Shown piece by piece: positions 1 through 8,317 of a stretch of DNA of 12,538 nucleotides (positions are counted from its first letter, which is position 1; each line of letters begins with the position of its first letter). The notes beneath the pieces are model-generated. The model saw only the letters and a program-made list of their open reading frames with translations, had not been told where the DNA came from and did no database searches. Origin of the DNA: Gammaproteobacteria bacterium (lineage in GTDB: Bacteria; Pseudomonadota; Gammaproteobacteria; UBA9214); assembly GCA_030635865.1 (NCBI GenBank), contig DAOVYA010000021.1, positions 1 to 12,538 on the forward strand, in the 5' to 3' direction. Made by a program: the position numbers and the translations under genes.

Positions 1-660
1 GTTGAGATAGATGATCAGGCCGATGATCGCGAGAAATCCGGCGCCATACAGGCCCCATTCAACGGGACTTCGATCCGCGTTGCGCGCACCTTCGAGGCTG
101 ATGTCGGCGGCAATTGAACCGAGATAAACATTATGCAGCGAGAGCGGAATGATGCCGACGAAGGTCCCACCCATAAATCCGCGCAACGAGAACTTCGTCA
201 GCCCGAAAAAATAATTGGAAAGCTTGAAGGGAAAGAACGGCACCAGGCGTGATAGCAGTATGATCTTCCAGCCTTGTGGTGTGAGTTCCTCGCTGACCAG
301 TCTGAGCCTGGCGTGTTGCAGCACAAACTGCGAGGCCCGGTCACCGAACAGATAGCGCGCAATCAGGAAGGCCAGTGTCGCGCCCAGTGTCGTCCCGACC
401 ACCACATAGAACGTGCCCTCAACCACGCCAAATATGAAACCGGCACCGATGGTAAACAACACGCCCGGAAGCACGAGCACAACCACCAGCACCATTAGCA
501 GAACAAACAGCAGCGGCCCCCAGATGCCTTGTGCATCCAGCCAGTTAAGCAACCGCAGCACCTCCTCGTGGGCGTCGAAATACACCAGCGCGGCGGTCAC
601 CAGCGCAACAAACAGGAGACTGATGACAATTACATGAAAAATTGATGGTTGCTTTGCCAT
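1..660 (-). CDS. TVP38/TMEM64 (DedA-like) membrane protein, 3' end cut by window edge
   Basis: Reading from the ATG at 660 gives 220 codons with no stop before the left edge, so the C-terminus is missing. The product is a multi-pass inner-membrane protein: a hydrophobic helix at residues 8-27, a long one at 48-68 followed by PG (65-66), glycine-rich segments around 70-104, and a last helix at 205-219. The run GATLAFLIARYLFG (93-106) and the LSRLVPFFPFKLSNY stretch (136-150) are characteristic of the TVP38/TMEM64/SNARE-associated family. Relatives of this superfamily are implicated in lipid scrambling and membrane homeostasis; the substrate here is unknown. The start has almost no Shine-Dalgarno sequence (AT-rich upstream), but the frame is closed upstream at 685-687 with no other ATG. 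It lies 53 bp beyond the DUF504 gene on the same strand, so read-through from the groEL unit is possible but unproven. Confidence 0.9.
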   Translation of the reverse strand, partial: MAKQPSIFHVIVISLLFVALVTAALVYFDAHEEVLRLLNWLDAQGIWGPLLFVLLMVLVVVLVLPGVLFTIGAGFIFGVVEGTFYVVVGTTLGATLAFLIARYLFGDRASQFVLQHARLRLVSEELTPQGWKIILLSRLVPFFPFKLSNYFFGLTKFSLRGFMGGTFVGIIPLSLHNVYLGSIAADISLEGARNADRSPVEWGLYGAGFLAIIGLIIYLN

Positions 661-713: not shown

Positions 714-968
714 TCAATGTTCACGATGCCAGATCAACTCCTTGTCCTTGTAGACCTCTTTTATCCGGTGCAACGGTATGCTATGCACTACACCATCATG
801 ATCAAGCAGATCAAATGAGAAATGATCGCCGGGTTCGAAGAAAATCTCGCGCAGTGGAACGCGAACAATACGGTCTGCAACCCTGTCATAGTAGCCGATG
901 ACGAAATCACCCTGACCGAATTCCTTGTCCCAGTGAATGCGATTGAGCAATTCGTGGATCGGGATCAT
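714..968 (-). CDS. DUF504 / MJ1316-domain protein (UPF0248), predicted RNA-end recognition
   Basis: This 84-residue protein consists only of the MJ1316 domain (DUF504, UPF0248). The family pattern is clear along its length: PIHELLNRIHWD at 3-14, the IGYYDR segment at 24-29, RIVRVPLREI at 33-42, FSFDLLD at 50-56, and HSIPLHRIKEVYKD near the end. Pfam describes this domain as a predicted RNA cyclic-phosphate-end recognition module; in eukaryotes and some bacteria it is fused to RNA-processing domains. That function is a computational prediction, not something visible here. The gene begins 8 bp after the groEL stop (TAG at 977-979), so it is almost surely cotranscribed with groEL and translated after it. 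The ribosome site is weak and lies inside the groEL tail codons. The presence of RtcB and archease 5.5 kb away fits a role at RNA ends. The family assignment is firm; the role is inferred. Confidence 0.88.
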   Translation of the reverse strand: MIPIHELLNRIHWDKEFGQGDFVIGYYDRVADRIVRVPLREIFFEPGDHFSFDLLDHDGVVHSIPLHRIKEVYKDKELIWHREH

Positions 969-976
969 GGGGGTGA

Positions 977-2605
977 CTACATCATACCCATCCCTTCCCG
1001 ACCTCCTCCGGGAGCCTCTGGTCCGTGCTGTTCACCGACCATCACCTCGGTGGTGATCATCAGGCCTGCGACAGAGGCGGCGTTCTGTAACGCCACCCGG
1101 ACAACTTTGGTGGGATCGATAATGCCCATTTCCATCATGTCGCCGTACTCACCGGTCTGGGCGTTATAGCCGTAATTACCCGGATTTCCTTTTACCCGGT
1201 TCAGTACTACCGAGGGATCTATTCCAGCATTGGCTACAATCTCGCGTAGCGGCTGCTCCACCGCGCGTAACACGATGTCAATGCCGATACCCTGATCAGG
1301 GTTATCACCCTGCAGCTTACCTGACCGGACAGCCTGCAGCGCCCGTATCAGGGCAACACCACCACCCGGTACTACCCCCTCCTCTACGGCGGCTCGGGTT
1401 GCGTGCATGGCGTCTTCCACGCGGTCCTTTTTCTCCTTCATCGCAATCTCGGTTGCCGCACCCACCTTGAGCACGGCAACACCACCGGCGAGCTTGGCCA
1501 CGCGCTCCAGAAATTTCTCCTTATCGTAGTCGGATGCAGTTTCATCGGCCTGCTTGCGGAGTTGCGTGATTCGCGCCTTGATATCTTCCGGCTTGCCGCT
1601 GCCGCCTATGATCGTGGTAGTGTCTTTTTCGACAACGATTCTTTTCGTTGCACCCAGATCATCCAGAGTCGCCTTTTCCAGCGACAAGCCGACTTCCTCG
1701 GAAATAACACTACCGCCCGTCACAATGGCGATATCCTGCAACATTGCCTTGCGACGGTCACCGAAGCCGGGGGCCTTGACCGCGACCACCTTGATGATCC
1801 CCCGGATTGCATTGACCACCAACGTGGCCAGGGCCTCGCCCTCAATATCTTCAGCAATGACCAGCAAGGGCTTGCCGCTCTTGGCAATACCTTCCAGCAA
1901 AGGCAGCAGGTCATGGATATTGGAAAGTTTCCTGTCGTACAACAGGACCAGGGCATCCTCCAGTTCCGCACTCATATCTTCCGGATTGTTGACGAAGTAG
2001 GGTGACAGGTAGCCCCTATCAAACTGCATACCCTCGACCACTTCCACCTCATTCACCAGCCCGGAGCCCTCTTCCACCGTGATGACGCCTTCCTTGCCGA
2101 CTTTTTCCATGGCTTCCGCAATTATCTGACCAATATCTGCATCCAGGTTGGCGGAAATCGTGCCGACCTGGGCAATGGCCTTGCTGTCTGCACAGGGCGT
2201 GGAGAGATTCCCGAGTTCCTCAACCATCTGATCCACGGCCTTGTCGATGCCGCGCTTGAGGTCCATGGGATTCATGCCGGCAGCAACCGCCTTGAGACCC
2301 TCTTGCAGCATGGAGTGCGCCAATACCGTTGCCGTTGTCGTCCCGTCACCGGCAAGATCAGAAGTACGTGAGGCAACCTCTTTCACCATTTGCGCCCCCA
2401 TGTTTTCGAACTCATCTTCGAGTTCGATTTCCTTGGCCACGGATACACCATCCTTGGTTACCGCTGGCCCTCCAAAGCCTTTCTGTAATATGACATTCCG
2501 GCCTTTGGGACCCAGGGTCGCCTTCACAGCACAGGCCAGGATACCTGCACCGTGGGCCATGCGCTGTCGCGCGTCATCACTAAACCTGATTTCCTTTGCT
2601 ACCAT
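977..2605 (-). CDS. groEL: Chaperonin GroEL (Hsp60), lone copy without groES
   Basis: The 542-residue product is a full group I chaperonin that refolds proteins in the cytoplasm with ATP and a GroES lid. It aligns collinearly with E. coli Gro[10 protein letters not shown] at 31-38, GDGTTTATV at 86-94 including catalytic D87, and D398 in the [16 protein letters not shown] segment. The apical substrate and GroES contact residues Y199, Y203, F204, L234, L237, L259, V263 and V264 are all kept. The C-terminal tail is short, ending GREGMGMM rather than in long GGM repeats. ATG at 2605 has a GGGAG ribosome site 7-8 bases upstream. No groES lies upstream: 2606-2928 is non-coding, so GroES must come from elsewhere, which suggests a secondary or condition-specific groEL. 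A perfect FNR-type box lies 144 bp before the start, and a DUF504 gene follows directly. Confidence 0.97.
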
Positions 2606-2722
2606 GTCAGATCTCCCGGATTCATTGCATCAACCTGACGCAACCACTCATCGTGCTTCTGTTTGCATGCGTACTTTTACAGCACTACTGGTCTTCTGCT
2701 ATCACTGGTTACTGTTTATACC

Positions 2723-2762
2723 TGTATACCTGTTTATTGATGCCCGCATTGATCCTGATCAA
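2723..2762 (-). promoter_or_regulatory. FNR/ANR-type box and putative groEL promoter
   Basis: TTGATCCTGATCAA at 2749-2762 is a perfect match to the FNR/ANR/Dnr consensus TTGAT-N4-ATCAA. Reading toward groEL, TATACA at 2728-2723 is the best -10 candidate, 20 bases after the box. This puts the box centre at about -39.5, close to but not exactly the class II activator position of -41.5. The predicted 5' leader would be roughly 110 bases. No RpoH-type promoter or CIRCE inverted repeat was recognised here. The box itself is certain; its use by groEL is inferred. Confidence 0.68.
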
Positions 2763-2782
2763 TGTTCCCGGCCTTAATGGAA

Positions 2783-2815
2783 CCTGAGGCAATACTCAAT
2801 ATTCCGAGTATCAGG
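2783..2815. repeat. Imperfect inverted repeat between the two divergent FNR boxes
   Basis: ATACTC at 2792-2797 and GAGTAT at 2806-2811 form a 6-bp inverted repeat with an 8-base spacer. Outside it, CCTGA (2783-2787) and TCAGG (2811-2815) pair as well, giving a bulged 10-bp stem. There is no following T-tract in either direction, so a terminator is unlikely. It could be an operator for a second regulator of the divergent promoters. It may also be chance. Confidence 0.35.
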
Positions 2816-2847
2816 TCTGGATAATTCATGTTTGCAAGAGGTTGATA

Positions 2848-2889
2848 TTGATGCACATCAATAACCTTATTCTCAAATGTAACTATACT
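2848..2889 (+). promoter_or_regulatory. Class II FNR-type promoter of the lipoprotein-DUF2267 genes
   Basis: TTGATGCACATCAA at 2848-2861 is a perfect FNR/ANR-type box inside a larger palindrome, ATTGATG-CA-CATCAAT. TATACT at 2884-2889 is a strong -10 hexamer exactly 22 bases downstream. If transcription starts near 2896, the box is centred at -41.5, the standard class II position for FNR activators. The lipoprotein ATG is at 2929, leaving a leader of about 33 bases with its own ribosome site. An extra TTGAT half-site directly precedes the box at 2842-2846. Confidence 0.8.
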
Positions 2890-2928
2890 TATTCTGAGTG
2901 CGTTTATCGCTTGATGAGGGATTGTGAC

Positions 2929-3387
2929 ATGCAAAGTAAATATTTGTTGAGTGTTGTACTGGTTGGTGCTCTTGTATTCTCCGGATGTGCGGAGACCCCC
3001 CGGCATGAGCAACAAGGGATGGTGATCGGGGGCATACTGGGTGGCCTGCTGGGATCGCAGGTCGGTAGTGGAGACGGAAGAACGGCAGCCATCATTGTGG
3101 GAACAATGGCCGGCTCCATGATCGGTGGTTCTGTGGGGAGATCCATGGATGATACGGATCGCCTGAAAGCCGCGCACACCCTGGAAACAGTGCGCACAGG
3201 CGTACCGTCCGCCTGGCGGAATCCTGATACGGGCAACCAGTATACTGTCGTGCCCACGCGCACCTACGAGAGCAGTGCCGGCCCCTGCCGTGAATACACG
3301 ATTGATGCCATGGTCGGCGGAAACAGGGAAAAGGTCTATGGGACAGCCTGCCGGCAGCCGGATGGCAGTTGGAAGGTTCAGGGATGA
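2929..3387 (+). CDS. Glycine-zipper lipoprotein, 17-kDa surface antigen type
   Basis: The 152-residue product starts at the ATG at 2929, which has a GAGGG ribosome site eight bases upstream; an in-frame ATG at 2842 would add 29 residues in front of a good signal peptide and overlap the FNR box, so it is rejected. Residues 1-19 form a lipoprotein signal peptide ending VFSG, with C20 as the likely lipidated cysteine; phenylalanine at -3 is a slightly unusual lipobox. Residues 30-65 are a glycine zipper (GGILGGLLGSQVGSG, then GTMAGSMIGGSVG) typical of the Rickettsia 17-kDa antigen family. The C-terminal half has the PCREYTIDAMVGGNREKVYG segment of that family, with a cysteine pair that could form a disulphide. 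It probably sits in the outer membrane facing the periplasm; its molecular role is unknown. It heads a two-gene unit behind an FNR-type promoter. Confidence 0.88.
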   Translation: MQSKYLLSVVLVGALVFSGCAETPRHEQQGMVIGGILGGLLGSQVGSGDGRTAAIIVGTMAGSMIGGSVGRSMDDTDRLKAAHTLETVRTGVPSAWRNPDTGNQYTVVPTRTYESSAGPCREYTIDAMVGGNREKVYGTACRQPDGSWKVQG

Positions 3388-3424
3388 AGCACCTGTGGCG
3401 TAAACATCACTATGGAGGCCCCCA

Positions 3425-3862
3425 ATGACAACGTCAGAAACCCATGTCCGGACATTTGATTCAACACTCCAGACCACGCACCGCTGGCTTCGCGAACTCG
3501 AACTGCTCGCCTCATTGGACAATGAATCCGAGGCCTATTCCGTACTGCGCGCCGTACTCCATGCCCTGCGCGACCGCTTGCCCGCCGATGAAGCAGTCCA
3601 TCTCGGCGCACAGCTGCCCATGCTTATCCGTGGTTTCTATTATGAAGGCTGGAAACCGAGCGCCACGCCGAAAAAACAGCGTTCACTTGAGGCTTTTCTC
3701 GAGGGCATGCAGCCACTGCCAGGGCTGGGAGGAGAGTTGAGCCCCGAGCAGGCGTTACGCAATGTCTTCATGATGCTCGATCACCGGGTCAGCGAAGGTG
3801 AAATAGCCGACGTGCGCGAGGCGATGCCCGAAGAGGTTCGTGATCTGTGGCCGACGCATTGA
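3425..3862 (+). CDS. DUF2267 family protein
   Basis: This 145-residue, soluble, mostly helical protein lies 37 bp after the lipoprotein gene with a strong GGAGG site six bases before its ATG, so the two are probably cotranscribed from the FNR-type promoter. The DUF2267 signature is clear: LRAVLHALRDRLPADEA at 41-57, AQLPMLIRGFYYEGW at 62-76, and the tail EGEIADVREAMPEEVRDLW at 124-142. Family members are repeats of a small helical domain of unknown biochemical function and are often found near stress or low-oxygen genes. There is no signal peptide or membrane segment. The gene ends 29 bp from the oppositely oriented haem-protein gene; I saw no clear terminator in that gap. Confidence 0.85.
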   Translation: MTTSETHVRTFDSTLQTTHRWLRELELLASLDNESEAYSVLRAVLHALRDRLPADEAVHLGAQLPMLIRGFYYEGWKPSATPKKQRSLEAFLEGMQPLPGLGGELSPEQALRNVFMMLDHRVSEGEIADVREAMPEEVRDLWPTH

Positions 3863-3891
3863 TCTACCCGTCACGAACAGGTTTTTGCGCT

Positions 3892-4470
3892 TCAGTCGCG
3901 GTCCGATGAAAGCGGCCGGGTAATGGTGAAGGCACCACGGATATCACCTTCCCTGAAGCCGCGTGCCTGGTCATCGGGATAAAGCTTCTCCAGCCGGGTT
4001 GTCACGGTACTGTCGATACGGGTTCCATGACATACCAAACATATTTCCTGTGTCGGTATGGCTTTCATGTACCGAAAGACATCTTCACCATCTACTTCAA
4101 CGACCTCGTAGTGTTCCATCGTCCCGGGGTCCTCGCCGGATTGTTTACGCTTCTCAAACGACTCCAGCACGGATAGTTCCCAGGCATCCGGGGCATTGTC
4201 GGGGTTGCGGACCTTGAGGCTGGTGCGGCCTACATCCCAGCCCTTGCGGGCACTGTAGGTGTTGGCGATACCCGGTGCGGTCAGGTTGCAGACACTGATG
4301 GCATTAACCGGCCCGCCGTCCCGCATGCCTTGCCCAAGCTCGGTCTTGAGGGCCTGCATGAATTCCTTTGTCACGGCCCGGCTGGCAGCCGCCTCGCGAG
4401 CGTACTCGCCTGCGTGAGCGTTAGCGAGAGCCAGTACGCCGATTACTACCAGTGTCATCAATCCTTTCAT
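3892..4470 (-). CDS. Periplasmic DUF3365 (Tll0287-like) haem protein with CxxCH
   Basis: The 192-residue product has a signal peptide (residues 1-20, ending ANAHA) and then a DUF3365/Tll0287-like domain. Diagnostic parts are SVCNLTAPGIA (59-69), RTSLKVRNPDNAPDAWE (82-98), and CLVCH at 144-148, a single c-type haem attachment motif. It is therefore probably a secreted monohaem cytochrome or haem-based sensor domain; redox partner and role are unknown. The ATG at 4470 keeps a lysine in the n-region of the signal peptide. A longer form would need a TTG at 4491, and a shorter one could begin at the ATG at 4458, which follows AAAGGA with a short spacer. A perfect FNR-type box lies 38 bp upstream of 4470, so expression under low oxygen is likely. 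It converges with the DUF2267 gene. Confidence 0.85.
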   Translation of the reverse strand: MKGLMTLVVIGVLALANAHAGEYAREAAASRAVTKEFMQALKTELGQGMRDGGPVNAISVCNLTAPGIANTYSARKGWDVGRTSLKVRNPDNAPDAWELSVLESFEKRKQSGEDPGTMEHYEVVEVDGEDVFRYMKAIPTQEICLVCHGTRIDSTVTTRLEKLYPDDQARGFREGDIRGAFTITRPLSSDRD

Positions 4471-4477
4471 GATCGGT

Positions 4478-4522
4478 AATATACTCCGCAAATCTGCTGC
4501 CCAGGTCCTTGATTCAGATCAA
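4478..4522 (-). promoter_or_regulatory. FNR/ANR-type box and putative promoter of the haem-protein gene
   Basis: TTGATTCAGATCAA at 4509-4522 is a perfect FNR-type palindrome. Toward the haem-protein gene, TATATT at 4483-4478 is the best -10, 25 bases after the box, which places the box near -44.5, three bases off the ideal. With that -10, transcription would begin about one base before the ATG at 4470, making a leaderless start or the SD-led ATG at 4458 possible. The box is certain; the spacing makes the promoter details uncertain. Confidence 0.62.
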
Positions 4523-4664
4523 CCGATGGCTGCTCTCCCTTCCATGATACCGGTCAACCCGTGCCAGGGCCGGTTCGATTTGAATGCTGAAGGCATGATA
4601 TGTGCCACTTCGCCGGTGTTGCGTCAACTTCCCCACTCTGGATTCAACAAGCTGAAGACGGTTA

Positions 4665-4706
4665 TTGATCCTGGTCAAAATACCGGTCCGGCAATTGTGT
4701 ACTAAT
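4665..4706 (+). promoter_or_regulatory. Class II FNR-type promoter of the DUF6763-like gene
   Basis: TTGATCCTGGTCAA at 4665-4678 matches TTGAT-N4-ATCAA at nine of ten positions. ACTAAT at 4701-4706 lies exactly 22 bases downstream and is preceded by TGT, giving an extended -10. The implied start site near 4713 centres the box at -41.5, as in the lipoprotein promoter. Together with the box at 4509-4522, this makes a second divergent FNR-controlled intergenic region; the rest of 4523-4664 holds nothing else I recognise. Confidence 0.68.
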
Positions 4707-4713
4707 ATTAATC

Positions 4714-4818
4714 ATGAGAAACAATGAGACGATACCTGGAATAACTGCAGAGCAGGGAAGAGCCATGACAACATCCTTCATCACCGGTTTTAATCGACTA
4801 ACAGGAAAATCAACATGA
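4714..4818 (+). CDS. Possible 34-residue leader ORF overlapping the next gene
   Basis: An ATG at 4714 opens a 34-codon frame ending in TGA at 4816-4818, which overlaps the ATG of the downstream gene as ATGA. The predicted FNR-dependent start site falls about one base before this ATG, so translation would have to be leaderless; no ribosome site is visible. The peptide begins MRNNETIPG and resembles nothing I know. The downstream gene has its own AGGA ribosome site, so coupling is not required. This could be a leader peptide or simply an open stretch of 5' leader. Confidence 0.25.
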   Translation: MRNNETIPGITAEQGRAMTTSFITGFNRLTGKST

Positions 4819-5213
4819 CTAGCGAAGCTGACCCCATTATCGATGCGTGGTATCACCACCCGGAAAAGGCACAAAAATTCAAGGTCACTGCACTCGACGA
4901 TCATGCAGCTACTGTTGAAATCCAGTACTTCGATGGCAATATCGATGAGCTTGATCTCGACACCTGGTACGGTCTCGACATTGAACGTATTGAGGCCCCC
5001 GAGGACTGGACCGGCCCCATGGACAATATCGAAAAGGATGACCTGAATCCGGTCGGTACTGAAATGCGACGTGAGGACTGGGAGGCACCCTACAGTGAAG
5101 TGGGCGAAAAGCGTCGCGCCGGGCCGAGGACCCCTGCTGAAGGAGAGGAAGAACCGGAGGATGATTGGGGTGAAGGACGACCGGAAGAGGAGCCTTTGGA
5201 AGGGCCAAAGTAA
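4815..5213 (+). CDS. Small acidic protein, DUF6763-like
   Basis: The 132-residue product has two parts. Residues 1-75 form a compact domain: PIIDAWYHHPEKAQKFKVTALDDHAATVEIQYFDG, then DELDLDTWYGLDIERIEAPEDWTGPMDN, resembling the gammaproteobacterial DUF6763 family as I remember it. Residues 85-132 are a low-complexity tail rich in Glu, Pro and Gly, probably disordered. There is no signal peptide or membrane helix, so it should be cytoplasmic and strongly acidic. The ATG at 4815 has AGGA eight bases upstream. It stands alone between an FNR-type class II promoter and a hairpin terminator, so it looks like a single-gene low-oxygen-induced unit. The function is unknown. Confidence 0.78.
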   Translation: MTSEADPIIDAWYHHPEKAQKFKVTALDDHAATVEIQYFDGNIDELDLDTWYGLDIERIEAPEDWTGPMDNIEKDDLNPVGTEMRREDWEAPYSEVGEKRRAGPRTPAEGEEEPEDDWGEGRPEEEPLEGPK

Positions 5214-5319
5214 TCAGGCGCTCGCCGGAGCCCTGAAGGATCGCCAGGAAACGGCGCGCTGTAATGATACGGGTGCACAGAGAAAACTGCTGCAAAGTCG
5301 GGGTCTTGATATGTCGCAA

Positions 5320-5352
5320 GGACAAACAGTCCAGCCTGTTGTCTAATTTTTA
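5320..5352 (+). terminator. Rho-independent terminator candidate before nadA
   Basis: GACAAACAG at 5321-5329 pairs with CTGTTGTC at 5336-5343 with one bulged A and a six-base loop, followed by TAATTTTTAT. This is a plausible intrinsic terminator for the upstream acidic-protein gene. It lies 107 bp after that stop and 45 bp before nadA. The stem is AT-rich, so strength is uncertain. The remainder of 5214-5397 shows no gene; I could not find a convincing promoter for nadA in it. Confidence 0.55.
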
Positions 5353-5397: not shown

Positions 5398-6441
5398 ATG
5401 CGTACAGACACAGAGAAAGAAACAGAACGCCTCTATGGCAAACTTCACCATCTTGGCTGGAGCAGGGGTGATTGCGAGCTCATCGCGCCAGTCACACAGG
5501 AGATAAACGAACTCAAGAAAGAGCAGAATGCCATCATCCTGGTCCATTCCTCCCAGACCCCGGATATTATGTACGGCGTCGGCGACTACATCGGCGACTC
5601 CTATGGTTTGAGCGTCAGGGCGACCGAACACCCGGCACAAAAGATCATCTTCAGTTCAGTCTATTTCATGAGCGAAACCGCCAAGCTGCTTAACCCCGAC
5701 AAGGAAGTGCTGGTCCCGCGGGTGGCAGGCTGTTCACTGGCAGACTCGATTACGGGCGAGCAGGTACGGGACCTGCGTAATGAACATCCCGATGCCGGGG
5801 TTGTGTGTTATGTAAACACCTACGCCGAGGTCAAGGCCGAGAGCGATGCGTGCTGCACTTCTGCCAACGCGGTGGAGGTAGTGGAGGCCATGCCACAGGA
5901 TGAAGTCCTGTTTATCCCTGACAGGTTGATGGGACTCAACCTTGCAAAGATCACCTCGAAAACCATCCTCACATGGGACGGTACCTGCGTGGTGCACGAG
6001 GGCTTTGATGTCGACTCGGTACGGGATATTCGGAAACGGTTTCCCGGCGTGAAAATTCTCGCCCACCCCGAGTGTACCCCGGGACTGGTTTCCGAAGTCG
6101 ACTATGCCGGCGGAACGTCGGGTATGCTCAACTACGTAAAGACCTCGAACGCAAAGACCTTCATGCTGGTCACCGAGTGCGGTCTTACCGACCGCTTCAA
6201 GGCGGAATTCAGGGACAAGGAGATCGTCGGCACCTGCATCCTGTGCCCCTACATGAAGCAGATCCAGCTTGAGGATGTGCTCAAGGCATTGAAGGACCCG
6301 GCGCCGGAGCAGTACATTGAGATTCCGCCGGAAATCGCGGCCCGCGCGAAGCATAGCCTGGACAGGATGTTCGAACTGGAGAAGGAAGGCAAAGCGCTGC
6401 TGGAAAAACAGGGCAGGAGCGCCCTGCCCTGGACGGCATGA
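5398..6441 (+). CDS. nadA: Quinolinate synthase NadA
   Basis: The 347-residue enzyme condenses iminoaspartate with dihydroxyacetone phosphate to quinolinate in de novo NAD synthesis, using a [4Fe-4S] cluster. The three cluster cysteines of the family fit C112 (VAGCSLAD), C197 (WDGTCVVHE) and C283 (CILCPYMKQ), with the family's spacing of about 85 residues between each. VHSSQTPDIMYGVGDYIGDS (49-68) and YVNTYAEVKAESD (138-150) are the substrate-site regions. The ATG at 5398 has GAGGT seven bases upstream. It opens an apparent operon: archease follows six bases after its stop, then rtcB and a DUF72 gene. No nadB or nadC is in the window. The cluster is oxygen-sensitive, in keeping with the low-oxygen theme of the region. 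NadA is unusual company for an RNA ligase, and the reason is not evident. Confidence 0.95.
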   Translation: MRTDTEKETERLYGKLHHLGWSRGDCELIAPVTQEINELKKEQNAIILVHSSQTPDIMYGVGDYIGDSYGLSVRATEHPAQKIIFSSVYFMSETAKLLNPDKEVLVPRVAGCSLADSITGEQVRDLRNEHPDAGVVCYVNTYAEVKAESDACCTSANAVEVVEAMPQDEVLFIPDRLMGLNLAKITSKTILTWDGTCVVHEGFDVDSVRDIRKRFPGVKILAHPECTPGLVSEVDYAGGTSGMLNYVKTSNAKTFMLVTECGLTDRFKAEFRDKEIVGTCILCPYMKQIQLEDVLKALKDPAPEQYIEIPPEIAARAKHSLDRMFELEKEGKALLEKQGRSALPWTA

Positions 6442-6447
6442 ACCAGT

Positions 6448-6858
6448 ATGTGGAGCCACTTTCATCATGAGGCCGACATCGGGGTGCGCGGCACCGGCCA
6501 GACACGGGAGGAAGCCTTCGAGGAAGCGGCCCTGGCCCTGACGGCTGTTATCACCGACCCTGAGTCGGTGACCTGTTCCGAGTCGGTGACCGTGGACTGC
6601 GAGGCCCCCGACCAGGAACTGCTGTTCGCTGACTGGCTCAATGCCCTGGTCTTCGAGATGGCGACCCGCAAGATGCTATTCAGCCGCTTTCGTGTCGAAT
6701 TCGAAGGACTGTGTCTTCATGCCACCGCCTGTGGTGAGCCTGTCGACGTGGCCCGCCACCGGCCTGCAGCGGAGGTCAAGGGTGCAACCTATACCGAGTT
6801 GGAAGTGTGTGAAGACGAGCCGGGAAAATGGCGCGCCCAATGTATCGTGGACGTCTAG
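6448..6858 (+). CDS. Archease, activator of RtcB RNA ligase
   Basis: The 136-residue protein is a full-length archease. In characterised systems archease speeds RtcB guanylylation and allows multiple turnover. The family landmarks are present: HFHHEADIGVRGTG at 4-17, with metal-ligand D10; LLFADWLNALVFE at 58-70, with D62; LFSRFRVEF at 77-85; and the tail QCIVDV, with D135. The KGATYTELEV strand at 111-120 is also typical. The ATG at 6448 is the only reasonable start, since the frame is closed three codons upstream by a stop at 6439-6441. The gene lies six bases after nadA and 28 before rtcB, so translation coupling with nadA and cotranscription with rtcB are likely. The adjacent RtcB confirms the assignment. 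Confidence 0.93.
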   Translation: MWSHFHHEADIGVRGTGQTREEAFEEAALALTAVITDPESVTCSESVTVDCEAPDQELLFADWLNALVFEMATRKMLFSRFRVEFEGLCLHATACGEPVDVARHRPAAEVKGATYTELEVCEDEPGKWRAQCIVDV

Positions 6859-6886
6859 TCCTGTACGGTTATTTTGAGAGCAACTT

Positions 6887-8317
6887 ATGGATACCTCAAT
6901 TCTGACACGTGTTTCCGAGTTCGAATGGCGTATCGAGCCAGAGGGTGATATGCGTGTCCCGGGCATCATCTTTGCCAGCGAAGACCTCATCCAGGACATG
7001 GATGACAAGGTGCGTGAACAGGTCACCAATGTCGCCAAACTGCCCGGCATTATCAAGGCCTCCTACGCCATGCCCGATGCGCACTGGGGCTATGGCTTTC
7101 CGATTGGCGGGGTCGCCGCCTTCGACGCGGAGGCGGACGGTGTGATCTCGGCCGGTGGCGTGGGCTTTGACATCTCCTGTGGTGTGCGCGCGCTGCATAC
7201 CGGGCTGCACCGCGCGGACATTGAACCGGTCAAGGAACGCCTGGCCGATGCCCTGTATCACACAATCCCGGTCGGCATCGGCAGCCACGGGGACATTCAC
7301 CTCGACGAACCCGGGATGGACGCCATGCTGACAGGCGGCGCCCAATGGGCCGTGGGGCGTGGCTGGGGTGATAGTGCCGACCTGGAACGCATCGAGGAAC
7401 ATGGCTGCATGGCGGGCGCTAAACCCGCAGCGGTGTCCGCGCATGCCAAAAAGCGCCAGCGCAATGAGATGGGCACACTGGGTTCCGGCAACCACTACCT
7501 GGAGGTGCAGGAAGTCAGCGAGATTTTTGATCCGGCTACCGCCAGAACATTCGGCATCGCTTCCGGCGACATGATCGTCAGCATCCATTGCGGTTCCCGT
7601 GGCCTGGGACACCAGATCGGTACGGAATTTCTCAAAACAATGGTACTCCGTGCGCCAGAGTACGGTATCACGCTCCCGGACCGTGAACTGGCCTGTGCCC
7701 CGATCAAATCGGAGACCGGACAAACCTATCTCGGCGCGATGCGCGCTGCCATCAACTGCGCATTCGCCAACCGGCAGATCATCACCCACCTCACCCGGCA
7801 GGTCTTTGCGAAAATCCTCCCGGAGGCAACACTGACACTGCTCTATGACGTATCACACAATACCTGCAAGGTAGAGGAACATATTATCGATGGTCAGCCA
7901 CGGCGGCTGTATGTACACCGCAAGGGGGCAACGCGCGCTTTCGGACCCGGACACCCGGACCTGCCGACGGCCTTTCGCGAGTCCGGCCAGCCCGTGCTGA
8001 TTGGCGGCTCGATGGGAACGGCCTCACATGTACTGGCAGGCAACCCGGGCAATGAATCCCTGTCGTTCTCCTCGGCATGTCATGGCGCCGGACGCGCCAT
8101 GAGCCGCCGCAAGGCGTACAAAATCTGGAAAGGACGCCAGGTCATCGACAACCTTTACGAGCAGGGCATCATCATTCGCAGCCCCTCCTCCCGCGGCGTG
8201 GCCGAGGAGGCACCTGGCGCCTACAAGGATGTGAATGCTGTCGTCAATGCGGCGGACAAAGCAGGCCTGGCACGCAAGGTTGCCCTGTTGAAGCCGGTCG
8301 TTTGCATCAAGGGATAG
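6887..8317 (+). CDS. rtcB: RtcB RNA-splicing/repair ligase
   Basis: The 476-residue enzyme joins RNA 2',3'-cyclic phosphate or 3'-phosphate ends to 5'-OH ends with GTP and Mn2+. Active-site residues match Pyrococcus RtcB nearly position for position: D95 and C98 in GGVGFDISCGVR, N202 and H203 in LGSGNHYLEV, H234 in IHCGSRGLGH, H324 in SHNTCKVEEH, and H399 in ACHGAGRAMSR, the histidine that becomes guanylylated. Length and sequence fit the longer archaeal-like RtcB that pairs with archease, rather than the 408-residue E. coli form with RtcA and RtcR. Indeed no rtcA or sigma-54 activator gene is present here. The ATG at 6887 follows a modest GAGAG site. In bacteria this enzyme is linked to repair of tRNA and rRNA cut by toxins or stress nucleases; the substrate in this organism is unknown. 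Confidence 0.97.
   Translation: MDTSILTRVSEFEWRIEPEGDMRVPGIIFASEDLIQDMDDKVREQVTNVAKLPGIIKASYAMPDAHWGYGFPIGGVAAFDAEADGVISAGGVGFDISCGVRALHTGLHRADIEPVKERLADALYHTIPVGIGSHGDIHLDEPGMDAMLTGGAQWAVGRGWGDSADLERIEEHGCMAGAKPAAVSAHAKKRQRNEMGTLGSGNHYLEVQEVSEIFDPATARTFGIASGDMIVSIHCGSRGLGHQIGTEFLKTMVLRAPEYGITLPDRELACAPIKSETGQTYLGAMRAAINCAFANRQIITHLTRQVFAKILPEATLTLLYDVSHNTCKVEEHIIDGQPRRLYVHRKGATRAFGPGHPDLPTAFRESGQPVLIGGSMGTASHVLAGNPGNESLSFSSACHGAGRAMSRRKAYKIWKGRQVIDNLYEQGIIIRSPSSRGVAEEAPGAYKDVNAVVNAADKAGLARKVALLKPVVCIKG

Follow-up and report, generated by a model that had tools for sequence, protein, structure and literature searches.

Class II promoters of the FNR/ANR/DNR family contain a regulator site near -41.5/-42, and a site at -41.5 implies, by geometry, a spacing of 22 nt between the site and the -10 hexamer. 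In the accessible part of one report, fnr1 of H. seropedicae is described with an Fnr site centred at -42, of class II (PMC5934665). For chaperonins, an Anr box was predicted upstream of groEL in Pseudomonas extremaustralis, and the available portion of that paper gives this predicted box as one of three unique to the species among the genes shared by five (PMC6588701). According to the accessible text of PMC4999443, groESL of alphaproteobacteria is a known NifA target. No experimentally demonstrated FNR-driven groEL was found in the available text of the literature searched, which was mostly without subscription papers.

The window (the whole stretch of DNA analysed, 12,538 nucleotides) is contig 158 of the MAG G000, which comprises 1.89 Mb in 325 contigs and is 82.8% complete and 6.3% contaminated. 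Its closest GroEL matches among the named genomes are gammaproteobacterial, which makes a gammaproteobacterial host probable. It was compared with relatives, labelled G002, G003, G007, G013 and so on. A gap of 326 bp between a groEL gene and a lipoprotein gene was found to contain two perfect FNR-type boxes. The locus shares with the FNR/ANR/DNR class II promoters a perfect palindrome, a distance of 22 nt to the -10 hexamer and the presence of FNR genes in the host, whereas the target here is a small glycine-zipper lipoprotein and the promoter of the window is a predicted one. An Anr/Fnr-type box before groEL is shared with P. extremaustralis, as far as the available part of that paper goes, and both are predictions, whereas the groEL of the window lacks groES, is a paralogue and lies in a repair island. 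With the NifA-controlled groESL of the partly accessible source, the window would share low-oxygen-linked control of a chaperonin copy; there the regulator is another one and the target is groESL, whereas in the window groEL stands alone. The canonical groESL heat-shock operons encode the same protein family, whereas the window groEL was found without groES, CIRCE or the sigma-32 consensus. The FNR-box region is ordinary in kind, with an uncommon set of targets, and the predicted regulation is modestly novel, an anaerobic-type box before groEL having been predicted earlier in the available part of PMC6588701.

The gap is probably a divergent control region that is read by the host FNR and acts both ways, as outlined below. 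The reader would be FNR itself or another protein closely related to CRP/FNR, for example a Dnr-like one, and the signal would be the absence of oxygen, or NO in the case of a Dnr-like protein.

Regulators of the host

Six Crp-type helix-turn-helix genes were found in G000. Two FNR genes (L017 and L018) were found to contain C-x2-C-x5-C together with the ETVSR recognition helix, and scored 285.6 and 252 bits against the NCBI Fnr cut-off of 228. The cysteines of FNR carry a 4Fe-4S cluster. A third CRP/FNR gene (L007 553-1275), located near another box, scored 96.8 bits and fell below the Fnr cut-off. Perfect boxes were present in G000 40 bp upstream of the gene for a cytochrome c/d1 protein, judged nirS-like from Pfam alone, and 95 bp upstream of napD-napA; the L003 gene was found to contain a cytochrome d1 domain in the family search. 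Taken together, the boxes before the nirS-like gene and napD-napA and the FNR genes point to a host that probably denitrifies and has an FNR-type regulon.

FNR-type boxes and their excess over chance

The perfect TTGAT-N4-ATCAA palindrome occurs twice in the gap, with 85 bp in between as the earlier note had described, at 2749-2762 (minus strand, facing groEL) and 2848-2861 (plus strand, facing the lipoprotein gene). Two further boxes of the window had been overlooked. A third perfect FNR-type box, with no strand assigned, lies at 4509-4522 between a Tll0287-like gene (minus strand) and a DUF6763 gene (plus strand). No -10 hexamer was found at 22 nt on either side of this box, and towards the Tll0287-like gene the best one was TATATT, off-register at 25 nt. 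The other is a one-mismatch box, TTGATCCTGGTCAA (4665-4678, plus strand), which faces DUF6763 and is followed by ACTAAT (4/6) 22 nt further.

The window has three perfect boxes, whereas 200 dinucleotide shuffles gave 0.02 on average and never three. Two boxes inside the 326-bp gap correspond to a Poisson P of ~5e-6 even at the box density of G000 itself. In the whole G000 genome 19 perfect boxes were counted, and the reversed pattern gave 0; the sums for the 23 genomes of the order are 288 and 9. Long frames (L001, L002, L008, L015, L138, L140, L141) enclose at least 7 of the 19 boxes in G000, and these may be without function. It is very improbable that the boxes are chance palindromes. Their presence inside long frames and their loss from some relatives would fit such an origin, but the excess over shuffles, the genome-wide excess, the peak at 22 nt and the partial conservation described below all argue against it.

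Spacing between the box and the -10 hexamer

The spacing was read for 94 of the 288 boxes, that is, the 19 of G000 and 75 among the matches listed from seven relatives. Both directions of each box (188 tails) were read, irrespective of gene direction, at offsets 8 to 38 for hexamers matching TATAAT in at least 5/6 positions. Such hexamers peaked at 22 nt with 18 of the 188 tails, not all of them independent since some boxes of the relatives are mutual orthologues, and were absent at 20 nt (0/188). Offsets of 21, 23 and 24 nt gave 4, 3 and 3 hexamers, 12 nt gave 6, and the remaining offsets gave 0 to 3. At a threshold of 4/6, with the better direction taken for each box, hexamers were found for 32/94 boxes at 22 nt and 9/94 at 20 nt, followed by 17/94 at 12 nt, 14/94 at 25 nt and 6 to 11 at four further offsets. 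As only 18 of the 94 perfect boxes had a 5/6 hexamer at 22 nt, and several of those in G000 lie inside long frames, a perfect box is not in itself proof of a promoter. The box, the 22-nt spacing and the -10 hexamer together form a usable rule for reading FNR promoters of this lineage.

Three observations were made beside this rule. Some boxes of the relatives that form the minor peak at 12 nt are possibly in repressing positions. An aminoacyl-tRNA editing-domain gene of G013 (L133 5637-6186) was found to have a perfect box and a consensus TATAAT exactly 22 nt away. A second phosphoribosyltransferase gene of the host (L139 511-1158), 80% identical to the window copy, is preceded at 28 bp by a perfect box with TATAAA at 23 nt; since this hexamer and the first ATG share bases, a promoter is doubtful there unless translation starts later.

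The probable lipoprotein-side promoter

The box at 2848-2861 is followed by the -10-like hexamer TATACT at 2884-2889 (plus strand), and the distance of exactly 22 nt agrees with the earlier note. The predicted centre of the box is at -41.5 and the start of transcription is predicted near 2896. Downstream lies the gene of a small glycine-zipper/17-kDa-antigen-type lipoprotein (2929-3387, plus strand; Pfam PF16998, PF05433), whose start codon was read from the sequence, followed 37 bp further by a DUF2267 gene (3425-3862, plus strand; PF10025). The short spacing suggests that the two genes are probably co-transcribed. A generic sigma-70 scan of 2580-4830 gave 0 matches against 1.9 in shuffles, which is unsurprising because class II sites are without a -35 element.

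The promoter was compared in eight relatives whose best lipoprotein copy had at least 60% identity; the copy G008:C462 (61%) and copies of 48% or less were left out. Three of the eight orthologous promoters combine a degenerate box with a hexamer 22 nt away, namely G007 (one-mismatch box, TATACT), G009 (two-mismatch box, TATATT) and G008 (two-mismatch box, TAGACT, 4/6). A box with a -10 hexamer at 22 nt was absent in the other five (G020, G022, G016, G006 and G002), and none of the eight had a perfect box. No further gene of the window adjoins the lipoprotein gene in the retrieved parts of G007, G008 and G009, so the promoter there travels with the lipoprotein gene and not with groEL.

The class II promoter that had been proposed for the lipoprotein gene is supported by the 22-nt spacing, which is the peak of the lineage, and by its recurrence with degenerate boxes in three of the eight orthologues. 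This promoter is very likely an FNR class II promoter. A regulator on the right box, at about -41.5, would contact RNA polymerase in the manner of class II promoters elsewhere, and its binding would turn on the lipoprotein-DUF2267 unit.

The groEL-side box

The box at 2749-2762 lies 143 nt from the start codon of groEL. The candidate -10 TATACA (2723-2728, minus strand; 4/6) was found exactly 20 nt from it, as had been stated before, and is two bases off the usual spacing. At 22 nt no -10 is present, the hexamer there being TACAGG (3/6). Two alternative hexamers on the minus strand are TATAAA (2715-2720; 5/6), which is off-register at 28 nt, and AATAAA (2733-2738) at 10 nt, which is GATAAA in G013.

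The groEL of G013 is 89% identical and was found to have the identical 14-bp box before it at a similar distance. This box lies inside a 17-bp identical block, the rest of the leader being diverged and shorter, and a lipoprotein orthologue is absent from the 20 kb of G013 that were retrieved. Upstream of the groEL of G003 (80% identical) there was no box within one mismatch, and a two-mismatch site was found at -183. G306 contained no box within two mismatches in the 400 bp before its same-clade groEL. The survey covered 55 groEL loci among the matches listed, with up to 600 bp upstream, and a perfect box was present in two of them, the window and G013. The 50 listed loci with a groES-like frame upstream contained 0 perfect boxes and 2 one-mismatch boxes. 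The best 80 named-genome groEL loci listed, which all pass the crude groES motif test, likewise contained 0 perfect and 2 one-mismatch boxes in up to 700 bp.

The earlier note had placed groEL under control of the box. The identical box of G013 speaks for this, whereas the off-register spacing of 20 nt and the absence of a box within one mismatch in G003 and G306 speak against it. There is a fairly good probability that groEL is controlled by the left box in some sense, and about an even chance that it is activated through it. Through the left box the groEL-MJ1316-VTT unit would come under the regulator that also binds the right box, with activation likelier than repression, by way of a sub-optimal -10.

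The off-register TATACA and the box-less groELs of G003 and G306 would also fit a reading in which the lipoprotein gene alone is controlled, the left box is auxiliary or a leftover, and groEL uses an unseen promoter of its own. This is rather unlikely, but not negligible; it conflicts with the box of G013, which stands before groEL without a lipoprotein orthologue in the 20 kb fetched. Less likely again is that FNR represses groEL when oxygen is absent, a reading that overlaps with the preferred one. The use of AATAAA as the -10 would put the groEL-side box over the -35 region, so that a promoter TTGATC-18-AATAAA would be covered by the box. A comparison of the window with G013 shows better conservation for AATAAA/GATAAA, at offset 10, than for the hexamer at offset 20, but the -35 and the -10 of such a promoter are both weak (4/6).

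The groEL paralogue and heat-shock control

The groEL gene (977-2605, minus strand) is without groES. Its product matched TIGR02348 with 807 bits, and its residues 3-525 align to residues 2-524 of the solved GroEL 8wuc_A. In a tree of 25 rows the groELs of the window, G013, G003 and G306 were split from the other 21 (100/100), which include the partial second copy of G003 itself and groELs from seven further genomes of the genus. None of the four groELs of this clade is immediately preceded by an intact groES (window, G013 and G003, and G306 by eye). The window groEL is a paralogue of a second type and not a groESL copy, so rules drawn from groESL are not directly applicable to it. The statement that oxygen/NO control of this groEL would be unusual is corrected accordingly for a groES-less groEL of the second type, and in the accessible parts of two sources predicted anaerobic-type control of groEL has precedents (PMC6588701, PMC4999443).

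The groES gene was not found in G000 (83% complete), G013 or G003, which says little because one was seen in only 11 of the order's 23 genomes. The groES motif test was crude, as it missed an interrupted groES-like frame before the groEL of G306 and perhaps another in G077, since the groEL of G077 falls with the canonical GroELs. The interrupted frame of G306 (L335, upstream of 5523) was seen by eye, hinting that the clade may be derived from a groESL pair that lost groES. A search of the 4,099 bases surrounding groEL that allowed as many as 3 mismatches gave no CIRCE element. The window was found to contain no exact match to the sigma-32 consensus, the absence of a consensus being weak evidence.

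One groEL and no groES were found in G000 and in the single-scaffold G013, as would be the case if this groEL were the sole chaperonin of the cell; its control would then be a major departure, whatever its sign. This is improbable. G003 contains this type together with a partial canonical groEL, yet groES was not found there either, and the small number of genomes of the order with a groES makes its absence weak evidence. Moreover, G000 is incomplete and G013 contains runs of unread sequence.

Two other groEL observations were made. In a plasmid search with GroEL the best 20 matches listed were groELs at ~73% only. A groEL of G005 (L135 8143-9112), ~80% identical at its start, was found in pieces of different frame adjoining archease-rtcB-DUF72, and an intact groESL was present on another contig of that genome.

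The island around groEL

The groEL gene is followed after 8 bp by the gene of an MJ1316 RNA cyclic-end recognition domain protein (714-968, minus strand; PF04457) and by that of a VTT-domain membrane protein (1-660, minus strand; PF09335), which runs off the window. The nadA, archease and rtcB genes lie at 5398-8317 (plus strand; PF02445, PF01951, PF01139), and the window also encodes DUF72, a phosphoribosyltransferase, a class II RNR and ftsH. Ten of the 14 window genes recur in the G013 stretch and eight in the G007 stretch, and no carrier of the island was found among the best 80 named-genome loci listed. The place of the MJ1316 gene behind groEL is taken in G013 by a frame with a presumed resemblance to endonuclease V (L133 12850-13503). 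The groES-less groEL lies in a repair/folding island with RtcB, archease, the MJ1316 domain, class II RNR and FtsH, and further promoters of the island were found to contain perfect or degenerate boxes.

The nadA-archease-rtcB-DUF72 genes are preceded by the box TTGATATGTCGCAA (5306-5319, plus strand) with TCTAAT 22 nt further, the site spanning 5306-5347; this box has two mismatches, and two-mismatch boxes taken alone are common. Upstream of nadA, TTGAT-N4-xGCAA was found at 22 nt from TCTAAT in G000 and G007 and from TACTAT in G013. No box within two mismatches was found upstream of nadA in G022 and G020, of which G022 keeps the hexamer and G020 has a similar one. The site suggests a weak FNR-type input into the RNA-repair unit.

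A wider reading of the island is tentative and stands somewhat on the doubtful side. The host would be a denitrifier with an O2- or NO-controlled repair/folding island, in which FNR would switch on the orphan groEL and MJ1316 and, through the weaker nadA-archease-rtcB site, the RNA ligase, beside class II RNR and FtsH. If this is true, RNA repair and protein folding would be tuned jointly to anoxia or nitrosative stress. If the predicted regulation of the gap is true, an extra chaperonin, and perhaps the RtcB/archease RNA-repair unit, would be placed in the anaerobic regulon, and anoxia, nitrate and NO would be testable conditions for two systems of which it is often unclear what triggers them in nature.
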